Shown here one piece after another: positions 40,801 through 48,828 of a stretch of 49,052 bases of DNA. Position numbers and translations under genes: made by a program. The stretch is from contig PLYM01000073.1 of NCBI GenBank assembly GCA_003153375.1, forward strand, positions 1 to 49,052, read 5' to 3'. Within the stretch, counting starts at the first letter, position 1, and every line of letters starts with the position of its first letter. This DNA is from Planctomycetaceae bacterium (GTDB lineage: Bacteria; Planctomycetota; Planctomycetia; Pirellulales; PALSA-1355). The notes under the pieces were generated by a model. That model was given only the letters and a program-made list of their open reading frames with translations, was not told the origin of the DNA and ran no database searches.

Positions 40801-40926
40801 TTACTTGAAAAGCTTGTAGATGCTTTGGACGAATGGAAGGAGCAGCGCGACTGCAATTCCAATCCATATAGGAAGGAACAGCAGGAACATTGACCACCCG
40901 GGCGAGCCGATGTGTCGCATCTTCAT
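40801..40926 (-). CDS. Candidate 41-residue membrane peptide
   Basis: ATG at 40926 opens 41 codons: basic, polar MKMRHIGSPGWSM, then a single hydrophobic span FLLFLPIWIGIAVALLLPFV and a polar, basic end QSIYKLFK. This is a good small single-span membrane protein by composition. It ends 17 bases before the 50-residue frame. An in-frame ATG twelve codons inward (40890) is possible. No good Shine-Dalgarno. Type I toxin peptides look like this, as do many small membrane subunits, so identity is open. Confidence 0.45.
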   Translation of the reverse strand: MKMRHIGSPGWSMFLLFLPIWIGIAVALLLPFVQSIYKLFK

Positions 40927-41087
40927 ATGGTCGCCGTTCGCCCGATGAGTTCACGAACCGAGCAACGATAGAAATCATGCCTAGCTCATGTCTGGGGGTA
41001 CGCCTCGATTATAGCACGGCATTATCGGCAGCAACGAGCAGAGCCCCTTCCTTCTCAACCCGTCTAACAGCCGATAGGATAGGGCTG

Positions 41088-42050
41088 ATGAGCAATGTGG
41101 AAACGAAATCGGTCCGACTCGAGCCTGAGCCGCTGCCCGACAATCTGCGGTCGGTGCAACCGGGGGGCGGGTTTTGCTATCAGGTGGAACTAGCCTGGGG
41201 CCGGCTGCGGCGCTGGTTTCTGCGGACGTTTCGCCCGGGCTACGTGCGGCAGATGGGCGCGGCCCGCTATGGTTCGGCGCTGGGTGTCGGGCACGAGATT
41301 CTCGACCCGCGCGATCTCAAATACTGCCGCAACCAGTGTACGTGTGATTGGGATCCCTCGCTCGACCGATTTGCCTGGCGCGAGAAGCTGCCGTTCGCCC
41401 GCTGGGGACTGGCCGAAATGCAGTTGATGGGCCTGCCGCTGTTGGCCCTGGCCGTCGTAGGCGGTTGGTTTCACTGGTATCTGGCCATCGTGCCGGCGGT
41501 GCTGCTGGCGTTCGTGCTCTATTTCTTTCGCGACCCGCCCCGGCAAGTTCCCTTGGAGCCGGGGCTGCTGGTTTCGCCGGCCGACGGCAAAGTGGTCGAG
41601 ATCACGCGACTGGAGCACGACGAGTTCATTGGCCGGCCCGCCGTGCGAATCGGCATTTTCTTATCGGTTTTCAACGTCCACATCAACCGGGCGCCCGCCG
41701 AATCGCGGGTGATTCGCCTGGTTTATTCGCCGGGTGCGTTTCTGAACGCCCTGAATCCCGAGAGCTCCTTCAAGAACGAAAACCTCTGGATTGGCCTGGA
41801 GGAAGAGTCCCCGCCCCACCGCCGGCTGGTCGTTCGCCAGATCGCCGGACTGATCGCCCGGCGAATTGTTTGCGATTTACGCAGCGGCGAGCGGGTCGCG
41901 CGGGGACACAAATTCGGTATGATCAAGCTCGGTTCCCGCACCGAGTTGATCTTTCCCGACGATCCCGGTCTGGAAATCCTGGCCCAAATCGGCCAGAACG
42001 TCTCCGGCGGCAGCACCGTCCTGGCCCGGTATCAACTCAAGGCCGAGTGA
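41088..42050 (+). CDS. psd: Phosphatidylserine decarboxylase proenzyme
   Basis: The C-terminal ~210 of 320 residues are the short Psd form: two hydrophobic spans (MQLMGLPLLALAVVGGW and YLAIVPAVLLAFVLYFF), VSPADGKVV, FLSVFNVHINRAPA and the self-cleavage site KLGSR, where G282-S283 would yield the pyruvoyl group. It converts phosphatidylserine to phosphatidylethanolamine at the membrane. About 105 extra residues precede it, including C80, C84 and C86 in a CRNQCTCDWDP motif, not usual for the family. The ATG at 41088 is preferred to a longer frame without Psd character. pssA follows 109 bases later, so head-group synthesis genes are together. Confidence 0.9.
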   Translation: MSNVETKSVRLEPEPLPDNLRSVQPGGGFCYQVELAWGRLRRWFLRTFRPGYVRQMGAARYGSALGVGHEILDPRDLKYCRNQCTCDWDPSLDRFAWREKLPFARWGLAEMQLMGLPLLALAVVGGWFHWYLAIVPAVLLAFVLYFFRDPPRQVPLEPGLLVSPADGKVVEITRLEHDEFIGRPAVRIGIFLSVFNVHINRAPAESRVIRLVYSPGAFLNALNPESSFKNENLWIGLEEESPPHRRLVVRQIAGLIARRIVCDLRSGERVARGHKFGMIKLGSRTELIFPDDPGLEILAQIGQNVSGGSTVLARYQLKAE

Positions 42051-42120
42051 AAATCAGACTGTTTAGACTGTTTCCGAATATCGCCACCTCTTGATTGAAC
42101 CGTCAACTCCCGGGTTTCCG

Positions 42121-42159
42121 TTTTTCATCCTTCATCCTTCCTCATTCATCCTTCCACCT
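42121..42159 (+). promoter_or_regulatory. Pyrimidine-rich translation leader of pssA
   Basis: Directly before the pssA ATG is a run of CATCCTT/CATTCATCC units without Shine-Dalgarno. Positions 42121-42141 are identical to 25592-25612 before trpA, and the spacing to the ATG is nearly the same. Confidence 0.55.
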
Positions 42160-43029
42160 ATGGGTCGCATTCGCACGGTTGCTGTTTTGCCCACGGTGTT
42201 CACGCTGGGCAATTTGATCTGTGGATTCTTTGCGATCGTGGTGGCGGCACGCGTGGACCGTCCGACTTCGACCGAGATTCCGCAGGCCGGGGCGATCGCG
42301 TTTCAGCATCCAACCCGGGTGATGAAGGAGTTCGACCCGACGGATGACACGCACAACGTGATGCTCAGCGGCTGGCTGATTTTCATGGCCATGGTGTTCG
42401 ATGCCCTGGACGGCCACGTGGCCCGCTTGGCCCGCACCACGAGCGACTTTGGCGCCCAGTTGGATAGCCTGTGCGATCTGGTCTCATTTGGCGTGGCCCC
42501 AGGCTTCCTGCTTGTGAAGATGTGTCCGACATTCACTTATTCACACAACCAGGTGTGGATCATCGCGGCTTCGTTTGCCGCCTGTGCGGCATTGCGCCTG
42601 GCCCGATTCAATGTCGAAGCGAGCAACGATGACGACCACATGCACTTTAGCGGCTTGCCCTCGCCCGCCGCCGCGGCGGCTATCGCCGGCTTCGCGATCT
42701 TGTTCTATGAGCTGCGCCGCGAAGGCAACGTGCTGCAATACAAGGCCGAGATTGACTCCTGGGTGCAAACGATCCTGCCGTTTTTCGCCCTGTTTGTGGC
42801 CCTATTGATGGTCTCGCGTATTCCCTATCCGCACGTCGTCAATCAGGCCCTGCGCGGCCAGCGCAGCTTCGGCCACATCGTGGCGCTGGTGTTCACGTTC
42901 GTGGTCATCATGATGATTCACGGCTATTCGGTGCCGCTCCTGGCTTGTCTGTTCGTCCTTTCAGGTCCAGCCCAATACCTGTGGCAGCGCGGCATTGAAC
43001 GCCGCGAAGCGCAGGATCCGATCTTCTAA
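42160..43029 (+). CDS. pssA: CDP-diacylglycerol--serine O-phosphatidyltransferase
   Basis: The 289-residue membrane protein has the CDP-alcohol phosphotransferase motif D-G-x2-A-R-x8-G-x3-D-x3-D in ALDGHVARLARTTSDFGAQLDSLCD, near residue 85. About eight hydrophobic spans surround it, beginning with VLPTVFTLGNLICGFFAIVV, which is typical for PssA. It makes phosphatidylserine from CDP-diacylglycerol and serine. The product is used by the psd gene just upstream. The start at 42160 is preceded by a pyrimidine-rich leader. A polar insertion (residues ~35-60) sits after the first span. Confidence 0.92.
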   Translation: MGRIRTVAVLPTVFTLGNLICGFFAIVVAARVDRPTSTEIPQAGAIAFQHPTRVMKEFDPTDDTHNVMLSGWLIFMAMVFDALDGHVARLARTTSDFGAQLDSLCDLVSFGVAPGFLLVKMCPTFTYSHNQVWIIAASFAACAALRLARFNVEASNDDDHMHFSGLPSPAAAAAIAGFAILFYELRREGNVLQYKAEIDSWVQTILPFFALFVALLMVSRIPYPHVVNQALRGQRSFGHIVALVFTFVVIMMIHGYSVPLLACLFVLSGPAQYLWQRGIERREAQDPIF

Positions 43030-43048
43030 GCGGGTGCGCCGAGCGTCT

Positions 43049-43648
43049 ATGTTCACTGGCCTGGTCCAATCCCTGGCGACCGTCCGCGCCGTGCGAGCCG
43101 AACCACCAGGCAAGCGGCTCGTCTTGGAATGCTCCGAACTGGCTCGCGACGCGGCACTCGGCGATAGCATCGCCGTCAACGGCTGCTGCCTGACCGTCGT
43201 GGCCAACGCCGACGGCTGTCTTGAGTTCGAAGCGGGGCCCGAGACGCTCGCCCGCACGAATCTGGGCGAGCTCGTCGAAGGTCGGGCCGTGAACCTGGAG
43301 CCTTCGCTGCGGGTGGGCGACCGGCTGGGCGGCCACTTTGTTACCGGACACATCGAGGCCGTCGGCACGCTCGACGCGCGCCACGATGAGCGCGACTGGT
43401 CGACGCTGTGGTTCCGTTTTCCGCCAGTGTTGGCTCGATACATGGTCAGCAAGGGCTCGATCGCCGTCGACGGCGTGAGCCTGACGCTGGTCGAGGTCGA
43501 GGCCGACCGCTTCAGCGTGGCCCTGATTCCCCATACCCTGTCGGCTACCACGCTGGGCCAGTTACGGCCCGGCGGACGCGTCAATCTCGAGACCGATCTG
43601 CTCGCCAAATACGCCCAAAAACAAGCCGATTGGGAAAAAACCCAGTAA
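43049..43648 (+). CDS. ribE: Riboflavin synthase alpha chain
   Basis: Riboflavin synthase dismutates two 6,7-dimethyl-8-ribityllumazine to riboflavin. The 199-residue protein starts with the invariant MFTGLVQ and consists of two lumazine-binding repeats: GDSIAVNGCCLTVV in the first and KGSIAVDGVSLTLVEVE in the second, with HFVTGHIEAVG between. The final helix LLAKYAQKQ mediates trimers. It begins 19 bases after pssA and has no visible Shine-Dalgarno or FMN riboswitch upstream. No other rib genes are here. Confidence 0.96.
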   Translation: MFTGLVQSLATVRAVRAEPPGKRLVLECSELARDAALGDSIAVNGCCLTVVANADGCLEFEAGPETLARTNLGELVEGRAVNLEPSLRVGDRLGGHFVTGHIEAVGTLDARHDERDWSTLWFRFPPVLARYMVSKGSIAVDGVSLTLVEVEADRFSVALIPHTLSATTLGQLRPGGRVNLETDLLAKYAQKQADWEKTQ

Positions 43649-43700
43649 TCTCGGGCTCCCACGAGCAACTGGGTCTGTCGCCCTGAACCCCTAGCACACC

Positions 43701-44609
43701 ATGCCGCCAACCGCGACGAATCAGACGATCTCTTACCTGGCGCGGCGGTTCGCCGAGGTCGGCATTCGGCTCAATGCGCGCCACGGTCAGAACTTTCTGA
43801 TCGATTTGAACTTACAGCGACTGATCGTCGAGCGGGCCGAACTTGGGCCGGATGACGTGGTGCTCGAAGTAGGCACCGGCACGGGCGCGCTGACGGCCCT
43901 GATGGCGTCCCACGCGGCCGCCGTGGTGACCGTCGAGATCGATCCACGGCTCTTTCAATTGGCGAGCGAAGAGCTGTTCGGCTTCACCAACGTGGTGCAA
44001 CTCGGACACGACGCGCTGGCGAACAAAAGCCACTTCGATCCCCGCTTGCTGGCCGCCCTCGAGCAACAACTGGCCGCCGCCCCGGGTCGCCGGCTGAAGC
44101 TCGTGGCCAACTTGCCCTATAGCGTGGCAACGCCGGTCATTGCCAATCTGCTGGCTGGCCAGCTCGTGCCCGAGTCGATGACCGTCACGATTCAGAAGGA
44201 ACTGGCCGACCGCATTACAAGTGTCCCCGGCACCAAGGATTACGGCGCCCTAAGCGTGTGGGTGCAAAGTCAGTGCCGCGTCGAGCTGGTCCGTTTGCTG
44301 CCGCCGAGCGTCTTTTGGCCTCGTCCCCAGGTGACCTCGGCCGTCATTCACGTCGAACTCGACGAGCCACGGCGCAAGCTGATTCCCGACCGGTCGTTCT
44401 TTCACGACTTCACCCGATCGCTGTTTTTTCATCGCCGCAAGTTCCTGCGCAGCGTCTTGCAAAGCGCTTGGAAGGGGCAGCTCGACAAAGCCACGATCGA
44501 CCAGCTGATCGTCCAAGCGGGCCTGGCCCCCGAATGCCGCGCTGACCAGCTCGACGTGCCCACGATCCTCAGGCTCTGCGAGGCCGTACGGACCGCCTTG
44601 CCTGCCTGA
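43701..44609 (+). CDS. rsmA: Ribosomal RNA small subunit methyltransferase A (KsgA)
   Basis: This 302-residue enzyme dimethylates two adjacent adenines of the 16S rRNA 3'-terminal hairpin. The SAM-binding start GQNFLID, motif I VLEVGTGTGALT, the acidic E of VTVEIDPR and the catalytic NLPYSVATPV are all present, followed by the RsmA C-terminal PSVFWPRPQVTSAVIHVEL and a helical RNA-binding domain. It starts 52 bases after ribE and has no evident Shine-Dalgarno. In E. coli it is next to other genes; this linkage is not universal. Confidence 0.96.
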   Translation: MPPTATNQTISYLARRFAEVGIRLNARHGQNFLIDLNLQRLIVERAELGPDDVVLEVGTGTGALTALMASHAAAVVTVEIDPRLFQLASEELFGFTNVVQLGHDALANKSHFDPRLLAALEQQLAAAPGRRLKLVANLPYSVATPVIANLLAGQLVPESMTVTIQKELADRITSVPGTKDYGALSVWVQSQCRVELVRLLPPSVFWPRPQVTSAVIHVELDEPRRKLIPDRSFFHDFTRSLFFHRRKFLRSVLQSAWKGQLDKATIDQLIVQAGLAPECRADQLDVPTILRLCEAVRTALPA

Positions 44610-44933: not shown

Positions 44934-45366
44934 GGCCGACGTTTTTTCCGTGAAACTGCAAGGAGGGTTTGCGGCGATCTTTTCGCCGCGTTTGGCACGC
45001 GATTTGGACATTTCGCGCGTCTAGTTAGTCCAGCTCAGGGAGGGCCTGGCGCTCTTTCTCCCCGCTTTGCTGGGTCGAGTTTCCATTGTTAATGTGAGTA
45101 TTTTGGGTGTTTTGGTGATATTTTGTGGTCCTGTCGCCGTTTGATGGGGGCTACGATCTCTGGTACTTTGTAGCGACTAAATGGTTTAGGTTGCCAGACT
45201 TGCTGCGGTGGATGCTAGATTCCCGTTCTCGTGATGAACCTGCACAGCTAGCAAAGACGATGTCCTGCCCGATGGCTGCGCGGACCGATGATGGAAGATA
45301 CAGTGTTTGGCGCGCAGCCAAGCGGGTGCCAGTACCCTCCTTTTCTCCCAGAGAGTTAGGATAGCC
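44934..45366 (+). other. 433-base intergenic region with hairpin and long leader
   Basis: No gene is evident. GCGGCGA-TCTTT-TCGCCGC (44971-44989) is a seven-pair hairpin followed by GTTTGG and may end the previous transcript. From about 45085 to 45130 the DNA is T/G-rich and low in GC, a candidate promoter region; TTGATG (45143-45148) and TACTTT (45166-45171) are 17 bases apart, a weak promoter. Some 190 bases of leader would then precede the fusion gene. Confidence 0.45.
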
Positions 45367-48300
45367 GTGCATCTCGATTATTTGCCTGGATCGTTCTTTG
45401 GACCTTCGAATCTGGTTGATCTGCTGCGACATCGGGCTGCCCACCAGCCCCATGATCGCGCCTTTACCTACCTGGTCGATGGCGAAACCGAAGAGCTCCA
45501 CTTGAGCTATGAGGGTTTGGACCGCCAGGCCCGCGCCGTGGCGGCCCAGTTGCAGGCCCTGAATCTGGCCGGCGAGCGGGCTTTGCTGCTCTATCCGGCC
45601 GGGCTCGACTTCATCGCGGCCTTTTTCGGCTGCCTGTACGCGGGTGTGGTGGCCGTGCCGGCCTATCCGCCGCGTCGCAACCGGTCGATGTCGCGAATCC
45701 AGGCGATTGCCGACGACGCCCAGGCCAAGATCGCGCTGTCGACCTTCCCGGTTTGGGAACGCGTGCAGTCGGTGATCGATCAGAATCCCGATCTGCGCAA
45801 GATCTCCTGGCTGTGTACCGACCAGTTGCCCCCCGCCTCGGAAGACCAGTGGCAAGTGCCGGACGTGCATGGCGACACGCTGGCATTCTTGCAATACACC
45901 TCGGGTTCGACGGGCACGCCCAAGGGCGTGATCCTCAACCACACGAACTTGATGCACAACTCGGCATCGATTTCCTACGCCTTCGAACACACCCGCAGCG
46001 GCAGCGGCGTGTTCTGGCTGCCCAGCTACCACGACATGGGGCTGATCGGCGGCATTTTGCAGCCGCTCTACATTGGCCAGGCCAACGTGCTGCTCTCGCC
46101 GATGGCATTTTTGCAAAAGCCATTTCGCTGGTTGCAGGCGATCTCTCGTTATCGTTGCACGATCAGCGGCGGCCCGAACTTTGCCTACGACTTGTGCGTT
46201 CGCAAGATCACGCCCGAGCAGCGCGACATGCTCGATCTGAGCCGCTGGTGCCTGGCGTTCAATGGCGCCGAGCCGGTGCGGGCCGAAACGATCGACCAGT
46301 TCACCAAGATGTTCGAGCCCTGCGGTTTCCGCCGCGAGGCGTTTTATCCGTGCTATGGCATGGCCGAAGCCACGTTGATCGTTTCCGGTGGCTTCAAGGC
46401 GGCCCTGCCCGTCGTGCGCACCTTTGATGCCGAAGCGTTGGAAAACAACCAGGTGGTCGATGCCTTGGGCGACGAAGAAGGCGCCCGCGAACTGGTCGGC
46501 AGCGGCGGCCACCTGCTCGATCAACGTATCGTGATCGCCCATCCCGAAAACCTGACCACGCTGCCGCCCGACCAGGTTGGCGAGATTTGGGTCAGCGGCC
46601 CCAGCGTGGCCCAGGGCTACTGGAGCCGAACCGACGAAACCGAACGCACGTTCCGCGCCTATCTGAAAGACACCGGCGAGGGGCCGTTCTTGCGCACCGG
46701 CGACTTGGGCTTCATGCAGGACGGCGAATTGTTCATCACGGGCCGCTTGAAGGATCTGATCATCATTCGCGGTTTGAATCACTATCCGCAGGACATCGAG
46801 CTGACCGTCGGCAAATGCCACGCACGGCTGCGGCCGGGCAACGGTGCGGCTTTGGCCATCGAAATCGAAGGCACCGAGCGGCTGGTCGTGGTTCAGGAAG
46901 TCGAGCGCCGTCAACAGCGCGATCTAGGCGAAGTGTTCGAGGCGATTCGCCGCGACGTGGCCATGGAGCACGAGCTTCCGGTCGAGGCGATTGCGCTGCT
47001 GAAAGCCGGCAGCATTCCCAAGACGTCGAGCGGCAAGATTCAGCGGCACGCATGCCGCCAAGGCTTTTTGGACGGGACGTTGGACACCGTGGCCGAGTGG
47101 CGCGCCTGGGCGCCCGATGCTCCCTTGGAGCCGCGCCGCCGCGTGAGCGACGTTAGCCAGGCTGACGCTGAAAGCGATGCCGAGCCACCCAAGACGGTGC
47201 GCCAGCGTCGCGTTCCGGTGAACTCCGAGCCGCCGAAAGTCAGCCCCGTCAGCCCCAATCCGGCCCTGAGCACCGCGGAGATCGTGCTCGATCACGTCCG
47301 CCGCGTGGCCAAAGAGCGGGCCATCAACATCACGCTCGATAGCTCGATCGTCGAGCTGGGTCTCGATTCGTTGGAGAGGATGGAAATCATCGCCTCGCTG
47401 GAAGATGCCTATGGCGGCCGTTTTCCCGAAGACGTGCTGCCGCAGATCGAAAGCTGCCGCGAAGTGGCGGCCGCCGTCGAGGCCTATCTCGGCCCGGCGC
47501 CGCGGGCACGTGGCGATCAGCCGCCGATCCACGAAGTCTCGCCCGAGAACTATCGCTTTGAGTGCTTTCCCGAGTATCTCAAGCTCCGCCAGATGATGGA
47601 GGAGACCAACCGCGCCGGGTTCATGAACCCCTATTTCAAGGTCCATGAGCGTGTGATCAACGACACGACGATGATCGACGGCCGCGAGATGGTCAGCTTC
47701 TCCAGCTACAACTATGTCGGCATGTCGGGCGATCCGCGGGTGGTTTCGGCGGTCAAACGGGCCGTCGATCGCTATGGCACCAGCGTTTCGGCCAGCCGGT
47801 TGGTTTCGGGCGAGAAGACGATCCACCGCGATTTGGAACAAGCGATCGCGGGCTTCATCGGCACCGACGCGGCCATCGTCTATGTCGGCGGCCACAGCAC
47901 CAATGAAACCACGATGGGCCACCTGTTTGGCCCTGGCGACCTGATCTTGCACGATTCGCTGGCCCATAACAGCATCGTGCAAGGCGCGCTGCTCTCGGGC
48001 GCCCGTCGGCGTCCTTTCCCGCACAACGATTGGGAGTCGCTCGACAAGTTGCTGGTCGAACTGCGGCCGACCTATCGCCGCGTTTGCATCGCGATCGAAG
48101 GCGTCTATAGCATGGACGGCGACATTCCCGACGTGCCCCGCTTCGTCGAGATCAAAAAACGCCACAAGGCGTTCTTGTACATCGACGAGGCCCACTCGAT
48201 CGGCGTGTTGGGCGCCCGCGGACGCGGCATCGCCGAGCATTTTTCGATCCATCCCAAGGACGTCGACATCTGGATGGGCACGCTCAGCAAGTCGTTCGGC

Positions 48301-48828
48301 AGCTGCGGCGGCTACATCGCCGGCTCCAGCGCCCTGGTCGAGTACCTCAAGTATACGGCCCCCGGCTTTGTCTATGCCGCCGGCATTTCGCCGGCCAACG
48401 CCGCCGCGGCCCTGGCCAGCATTCGGTTGCTGGAAGCCGAGCCCCAACGCGTGGCCACGCTGCACGAGCGCTGCGAGCTGTTTTTGAACCTGGCCCGCGC
48501 TCGCGGCCTGAACACGGGCATGAGCGGTGGCACCGCCGTGCTGCCGGTGATTCTGGGCAACTCGATGGACAGCTTGCGGCTGTCGCAAGCCCTGTTCGAG
48601 CGCGGCATCAACGTGCAGCCGATTCTGCACCCCGCCGTCGAAGAGAAGGCCGCCCGCCTGCGATTCTTCATCACCTCGGACCACACCGAGGCGCAGATCC
48701 GCGAAACGATCGAGGCCGTGGCCGAAGAGCTCGAGAAGATCGACCCCCGCTACTTGAACATGCCCACCACCCGCCGCAACGGCCACCACTTCGGCACCGT
48801 CCCGGCCAGCCAGGGCAGCCGCGGTTAA
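45367..48828 (+). CDS. Fatty acyl-AMP ligase / ACP / alpha-oxoamine synthase fusion
   Basis: A GTG at 45367 with AGGA upstream begins a 1153-residue three-domain protein. Residues about 1-575 are a FAAL-type adenylate ligase: YTSGSTGTPKGV from residue 177, YGMAEATL and the FAAL insertion in TDETERTF. Residues ~630-700 are an acyl carrier domain with the phosphopantetheine serine S668 in LGLDSLERM. Residues ~720-1140 are a PLP alpha-oxoamine synthase with Schiff-base K975 in TLSKSFGS, HSIGVLGARGRG and DEAHS. The likely reaction is activation of a fatty acid, loading on the carrier and decarboxylative condensation with an amino acid to a 3-oxo amine, as in serine palmitoyltransferase. Product unknown. 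Confidence 0.93.
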   Translation: MHLDYLPGSFFGPSNLVDLLRHRAAHQPHDRAFTYLVDGETEELHLSYEGLDRQARAVAAQLQALNLAGERALLLYPAGLDFIAAFFGCLYAGVVAVPAYPPRRNRSMSRIQAIADDAQAKIALSTFPVWERVQSVIDQNPDLRKISWLCTDQLPPASEDQWQVPDVHGDTLAFLQYTSGSTGTPKGVILNHTNLMHNSASISYAFEHTRSGSGVFWLPSYHDMGLIGGILQPLYIGQANVLLSPMAFLQKPFRWLQAISRYRCTISGGPNFAYDLCVRKITPEQRDMLDLSRWCLAFNGAEPVRAETIDQFTKMFEPCGFRREAFYPCYGMAEATLIVSGGFKAALPVVRTFDAEALENNQVVDALGDEEGARELVGSGGHLLDQRIVIAHPENLTTLPPDQVGEIWVSGPSVAQGYWSRTDETERTFRAYLKDTGEGPFLRTGDLGFMQDGELFITGRLKDLIIIRGLNHYPQDIELTVGKCHARLRPGNGAALAIEIEGTERLVVVQEVERRQQRDLGEVFEAIRRDVAMEHELPVEAIALLKAGSIPKTSSGKIQRHACRQGFLDGTLDTVAEWRAWAPDAPLEPRRRVSDVSQADAESDAEPPKTVRQRRVPVNSEPPKVSPVSPNPALSTAEIVLDHVRRVAKERAINITLDSSIVELGLDSLERMEIIASLEDAYGGRFPEDVLPQIESCREVAAAVEAYLGPAPRARGDQPPIHEVSPENYRFECFPEYLKLRQMMEETNRAGFMNPYFKVHERVINDTTMIDGREMVSFSSYNYVGMSGDPRVVSAVKRAVDRYGTSVSASRLVSGEKTIHRDLEQAIAGFIGTDAAIVYVGGHSTNETTMGHLFGPGDLILHDSLAHNSIVQGALLSGARRRPFPHNDWESLDKLLVELRPTYRRVCIAIEGVYSMDGDIPDVPRFVEIKKRHKAFLYIDEAHSIGVLGARGRGIAEHFSIHPKDVDIWMGTLSKSFGSCGGYIAGSSALVEYLKYTAPGFVYAAGISPANAAAALASIRLLEAEPQRVATLHERCELFLNLARARGLNTGMSGGTAVLPVILGNSMDSLRLSQALFERGINVQPILHPAVEEKAARLRFFITSDHTEAQIRETIEAVAEELEKIDPRYLNMPTTRRNGHHFGTVPASQGSRG

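Follow-up and report, generated by a model that had tools for sequence, protein, structure and literature searches.

The window analyzed here is a whole contig of 49,052 nucleotides (G000:C290) from a Planctomycetaceae bacterium of the order Pirellulales. It carries an open reading frame on the forward strand at positions 45367-48828 with a GTG start codon, directly preceded by TTAGGATAGCC, and encoding a protein of 1153 amino acids. Gene calls are mechanical, and an alternative TTG start at 45307 would add ~20 residues to the protein. The consecutive genes upstream of it, at 40890-44609, are psd, a CDP-alcohol phosphatidyltransferase gene, a riboflavin synthase gene and rsmA. The contig ends 224 bases past the gene and the downstream context was, therefore, taken from relatives. 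The protein (referred to as the fusion below) and its predicted parts are:

45367..48828, +, FAAL-ACP-alpha-oxoamine synthase fusion, 1153 aa (profile searches, AlphaFold2, catalytic residues invariant in 24 aligned sequences)
45409..47091, +, fatty acyl-AMP ligase (FAAL) domain, residues ~15-575 (Pfam, NCBIfam, residues, structure match)
45895-45915, +, adenylate loop YTSGSTG of the ligase (A10 lysine is K557)
47272..47484, +, carrier (PP-binding) domain, residues ~636-706 (Pfam PF00550, 39 bits)
47368-47370, +, phosphopantetheine serine S668 of the carrier (invariant in the 24-row alignment)
47569..48726, +, PLP-dependent alpha-oxoamine synthase domain, residues ~735-1120 (Pfam, trees, residues, structure match)
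47794-47796, +, S810, in the column of ALAS Thr83
48289-48291, +, PLP lysine K975

Pfam places AMP-binding at residues 21-419, a DIP2-like AMP domain at 463-575, PP-binding at 640-704 and Aminotran_1_2 at 774-1118, and detects neither KS nor AT domains in the protein. In an AlphaFold2 model (mean pLDDT 77), the domains are mostly confident and are connected by disordered linkers at residues 583-634 and 714-736. An earlier note on this DNA had described three complete domains with an adenylate loop at residue 177, a carrier serine S668 and a PLP lysine K975. This description is right: the loop starting at Y177, S668 and K975 are invariant in the 24 aligned sequences on which conservation was scored, as are K557, H867, D940, H943 and R1099 and the carrier positions G665, D667 and L669. 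Because the layout is found in ~105 of 118 near-complete Pirellulales genomes (see below), it is far beyond chance; the open reading frame is real.

For the N-terminus, NCBIfam ranks fatty-acid--AMP ligases ahead of CoA ligases, the best matching models and structures are those of FAALs and not of CoA ligases, and the A-motifs are complete. In structure comparison, the ligase domain is 55% identical to the FAAL of the Synechococcus olefin synthase, structures of which have been solved with palmitoyl and stearoyl adenylate. The domain resembles, in other words, a FAAL that binds C16 and C18 adenylates, and this resemblance suggests its own chain length. By domain membership, the protein is a predicted FAAL-carrier-alpha-oxoamine synthase, and the AMP ligase and carrier domains in one polypeptide are in line with the idea of the earlier note that the same chain would activate a fatty acid and load it onto its own carrier.

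The PLP domain and its relatives

The PLP domain has the residues of an alpha-oxoamine synthase, i.e. the PLP lysine K975, the stacking histidine H867, D940 and H943 at the cofactor site and the carboxylate-binding arginine R1099, and its AlphaFold2 model matches the Sphingobacterium SPT with a TM of 0.93 by target. In a quick tree of the family as well as in a careful tree of 34 rows, the domain is part of a strongly supported clade (SH-aLRT 99; 100/99 in the 34-row tree) that comprises the Pirellulales fusions, RedL, myxobacterial PKS-linked synthases and RkpG-type enzymes, and the RedL synthase is its closest characterised relative. Of the RkpG-type enzymes, the annotated one has a type I PKS and genes for a capsule as its neighbors. 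A carrier-bound acyl substrate appears to be a trait common to the contexts of this clade. In both trees, the fusion lies outside the clade of characterised bacterial SPTs and, for this reason, we do not file it as an SPT. The best tree joins its clade to the SPTs and LCB2 with weak support (84/70), tentatively placing the clade on the serine palmitoyltransferase side of the family. Forced grouping of the clade with BioF was rejected, if modestly (p-AU 0.036), and forced grouping with KBL/ALAS was rejected marginally (p-AU 0.048). Thus, in the phylogenetic comparison that the earlier note had proposed, the PLP domain stands apart from the biotin enzyme BioF, and in the column of BioF Arg349 the fusion has a leucine.

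With respect to the amino acid substrate, ALAS Thr83 helps to set glycine specificity. The corresponding column holds threonine in ALAS and RedL, serine in SPTs, LCB2 and RedN, and Ser810, invariant in the 24 sequences, in the fusion. Judged from this residue, serine or alanine would be favored over glycine; the rule is a loose one, however, because E. coli KBL, which uses glycine, has valine in this column. Serine is the likely substrate.

The fusion can be compared with three known systems. RedL of the undecylprodiginine pathway in Streptomyces, which makes a pigment precursor from glycine, starts with a FAAL-ACP and ends with an alpha-oxoamine synthase of the same PLP clade that is 52-55% identical to that of the fusion. 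RedL differs in being a longer, ligase-carrier-KS-AT-synthase chain, i.e. KS-AT is inserted, and in having Thr-Pro where the fusion has Ser-Arg at positions 810-811. RkpG-type synthases of K-antigen and capsule loci belong to the same PLP clade (48-60% identical) and are expected to use a carrier-bound acyl substrate, but are free-standing proteins whose partners are a type I PKS and the capsule genes, and they have no ligase or carrier of their own. One such enzyme lies with a type I PKS and KDO/capsule genes on the Pseudomonas plasmid pL21564-1 from poultry meat (L119:6335-15188), which carries a mobile lipid-anchor and capsule locus. Finally, the eukaryotic SPT subunit LCB2, which is part of a CoA-dependent membrane heterodimer, has the KSFGSCGGYIAG motif in common with the fusion and is positioned beside the clade; it forms a long branch in the tree, and its kinship with the clade is unsure.

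Several further synthases were observed. The source genome has a second carrier-coupled synthase (G000:C126:13200-14690; L090:9180-10730, reverse strand), an ACP-PLP protein of 516 aa that is 53% identical and lacks a ligase, and synthase frames of 547-621 aa in family f8 are probably of the same kind. In family f15 (G017, G033, G061, G066, G070, G078, G082, G086, G090 and G094), many genomes have a separate frame of ~2560-2670 aa that ends in a synthase of this kind and is similar in size to the myxobacterial PKS-synthase proteins. A divergent alpha-oxoamine synthase-like frame at G000:C48:8782-9939 is broken by a TGA codon and is perhaps a pseudogene or an assembly error.

Distribution in the Pirellulales and coupling with CerS

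A search of genome contigs recovered the layout in ~35 planctomycete records. Among 118 Pirellulales genomes of at least 90% completeness, 106 have a match at E<=1e-200, and 105 were counted as having the full fusion after inspection of weak cases, some being cut by contig ends; presence and absence were scored from draft genomes with manual reading of the fusion hits, and an absence may be an assembly gap. Even Pirellulales genomes of 3 Mb have the fusion. By contrast, in a sample of 148 Planctomycetia genomes (37 Pirellulales and 111 others), the full fusion was found in none of the 111 others; these have only separate synthases, or ligase domains that belong to other frames. Outside the Planctomycetia, the search met just ligase or synthase pieces and no full fusion.

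Across 72 loci, no conserved operon was found around the fusion and the neighbors are scattered, including rsmA (upstream in 13 of the 72), a BBP7 porin, which is the commonest neighbor (27/72), and a WXG100-FtsK set. The connection with phospholipid and lipid A genes that the earlier note had drawn from the window is, therefore, not borne out as a conserved context, even though psd and the CDP-alcohol phosphatidyltransferase gene are upstream in this genome. A near-universal gene in variable surroundings is what one expects of a core gene rather than of a biosynthetic cluster that moves between genomes, and we count the fusion among the core genes of the Pirellulales. As a separate observation, ~8-10 Pirellulales loci have an ESX/type VII-like set 3' of the fusion on the same strand that consists of a WXG100 protein, a coiled-coil-like protein and an FtsK/SpoIIIE ATPase of 1300 aa (e.g. 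L028:14252-19027 and L151:11879-12151).

The distribution of the fusion points to a probable partner. The N-acyltransferase CC_1154, of which yghO is listed as a homologue (PMC9386255), has been named CerS (PMC11324152); no NCBIfam model covers CerS, and homologues were called by BLAST to YghO. The source genome has one at G000:C142:7352-8458 that is 36% identical to YghO over nearly the full length, and homologues are present in 35 of 39 close relatives and in 107 of the 118 Pirellulales genomes. CerS has the same boundary as the fusion (34/37 Pirellulales versus 0/111 other Planctomycetia). Across the 118 genomes, 103 have both, two the fusion only, four CerS only and nine neither, the last falling into five families (genera g5, g8, g15, g44 and g65). 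The association is significant for genomes (Fisher p 4e-9, with counts not corrected on a species tree) and after collapsing to genera (p 7e-5), and an XdhC-like gene from the same window, used as a control, is unassociated with the fusion (4/13 versus 33/105; p 1.0). Two of the four CerS-only exceptions are explicable: in G004, an SPT-type enzyme adjoins CerS (L201), and G097 has an ACP-synthase protein.

Adjacency points in the same direction. The fusion adjoins CerS in G031 (L200), the sole genome in which this was seen. CerS also has an SPT-type neighbor in G001, G004, G021 and G037, and in G026 it lies beside a divergent synthase. Beyond the Pirellulales, the clade of the fusion includes synthases with a CerS homologue in the same locus; these come from six myxobacterial contigs, a MAG of the Chlamydiae and Hansschlegelia. 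In E. coli BL21(DE3), the genes for a fatty acyl-AMP ligase, an epimerase, a carrier and spt are consecutive with yghO adjoining. Thus, co-presence, co-absence and adjacency with CerS homologues all indicate a sphingoid-type product, one of those the earlier note had considered. Two variants were also seen: open frames of ~790-890 aa with two CerS homologues in tandem that look like fused duplicates (G035:C166, G062:C109, G067:C80, G071:C23, G083:C146 and G115:C96), and myxobacterial clusters (L052, L053, L054, L055, L067 and L075) with a CerS homologue, a stand-alone FAAL and a KS-AT-KR-DH-synthase protein.

For the reduction of a ketone, the source genome has, in addition to CerS on C142, NAD-dependent epimerase-family candidates on C273 and C29. 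In G003 and in G001, to which locus L042 belongs, the fusion adjoins one such epimerase, EpiA; in 23 genomes, EpiA and CerS are no more than 4 kb apart. EpiA is no more than a candidate ketone reductase: it is nearest to the HpnA family, and closer to HpnA than to CerR. E. coli CerR is also nearest to HpnA, if more weakly, and EpiB (L210 and L218) is somewhat nearer to CerR (29-30%). Because RedL loci also have an epimerase-family gene adjoining the synthase, the association is not ceramide-specific.

A proposed route to ceramide-like lipids

Based on these data, we suggest that the fusion is a self-loading serine-palmitoyltransferase-like synthase that feeds CerS-type N-acylation and gives rise to a ceramide-like product, a reading to which we assign a probability of roughly two in three. 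In this model, as the domain anatomy and conserved residues suggest, the N-terminal ligase would convert a free long-chain fatty acid to acyl-AMP and transfer the acyl group to the carrier domain of its own chain. The PLP domain would then join a small amino acid, most probably serine, to the acyl group on the carrier in a decarboxylative condensation that yields a 3-keto long-chain base. Based on co-occurrence and adjacency, the CerS/YghO-type N-acyltransferase (G000:C142:7352-8458) would N-acylate this base, and an NAD-dependent epimerase-family reductase, with the candidates on C273 and C29, would reduce the ketone to give a ceramide-like lipid. The order of the later steps and the final lipid are our inference. 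Alternatively, CerS could serve a separate SPT-type enzyme in the few Pirellulales in which one adjoins it.

The model has a close precedent in other bacteria. Rhodobacterial SPTs prefer acyl-AcpR, which is loaded by the dedicated ligase AasR (PMC9386255), and AasR, AcpR and Spt of Caulobacter crescentus and E. coli BL21(DE3) have the same three activities as the fusion and also a CerS/YghO partner (PMC9386255). However, these are encoded by separate genes, Spt is in another clade, and the ligase and synthase are ~33-34% identical to the domains of the fusion. Most likely, the fusion takes the place of AasR, AcpR and Spt with one chain and makes the 3-keto-sphingoid base for CerS.

Among other explanations, we consider it unlikely, but deserving of attention, that the fusion makes a 1-deoxy or other non-serine alpha-oxoamine from alanine or cysteate that is still N-acylated to a deoxyceramide or sulfonolipid analogue. 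The serine in the ALAS Thr83 column also suits alanine, B. amyloliquefaciens BioF having serine there, Spt can take alanine to yield 1-deoxyceramides (PMC11334938), and the coupling to CerS fits equally well; against this, serine is the usual substrate of the closest sphingolipid enzymes. We regard as improbable a RedL-like role in secondary metabolism, in which a glycine-derived aminoketone is cyclised or exported and does not become a membrane lipid. The shared ligase-carrier start and the similarity of the PLP end speak for it, but the fusion is near-universal and coupled to CerS, has Ser instead of Thr in the ALAS Thr83 column, and lacks the KS and AT domains of the RedL-type layout; no prodiginine or other conserved biosynthetic cluster was found at the 72 loci.

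Somewhat less probable again is the role proposed for RkpA/RkpG systems, in which the lipid anchors a surface polysaccharide, with the aminoketone being reduced and glycosylated and no bulk ceramide being made. RkpG-type sister enzymes do adjoin PKS and KdsA/KdsB/KpsF/capsule genes, but capsule export genes do not recur beside the fusion at the 72 loci. CerS co-occurs with the fusion but is missing from the stretch around most RkpG-type loci examined. Finally, the NCBIfam model that scores highest on the PLP domain is that of BioF (343 bits, under its cut-off of 426), as would suit an 8-amino-7-oxononanoate synthase of the biotin pathway with its own pimelate loading module. We consider this highly improbable and rejected a biotin role on the basis of the AU test and the leucine in the Arg349 column; a separate BioF-like gene of the genome (L004) keeps the arginine, and the ligase of the fusion resembles long-chain FAALs.

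The core idea of the earlier note is thus largely supported. Its single-chain arrangement stands but is less novel than supposed there, given RedL, the acyl-ACP-preferring SPTs (PMC9386255) and the A-CP-PLP2 layout listed for Blastopirellula marina (A3ZWL3) and Microscilla marina (A1ZVW4) by Milano et al. in 2013 (PMC3870968). The protein of B. marina DSM 3645 at L030, which is 59% identical, is presumably the one listed. A-CP-PLP2 has the layout of the fusion and was listed without product, cluster, distribution, partner or pathway (PMC3870968). The earlier note had named a published product for relatives of this layout as an outcome that would count against it; we found none in the open-licence PMC literature. 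A study of metagenomes, in which 138 MAGs had Spt-like genes, has suggested that Planctomycetota may make sphingolipids (PMC11334938, 2024). In the same open-licence literature, we found neither a described planctomycete sphingolipid pathway nor papers on a FAAL with an oxoamine synthase or with a serine palmitoyltransferase. The layout itself was, therefore, already known; what we did not find in this literature are the order-wide occurrence of the fusion, its coupling to CerS and the carrier-coupled clade.

For the Pirellulales as a whole, we see an even chance that ceramide-type lipids are a standard membrane component made via one CoA-independent polypeptide whose PLP domain falls in a clade other than that of any characterised bacterial SPT. 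If our reading of the fusion is correct, it would name the entry enzyme of planctomycete sphingolipids together with its partners and the order that bears it, explain how fatty acids are routed into sphingolipids without CoA, and provide a convenient one-protein enzyme for long-chain bases. The reading is testable in culturable species and would have a bearing on the unusual envelopes of planctomycetes.
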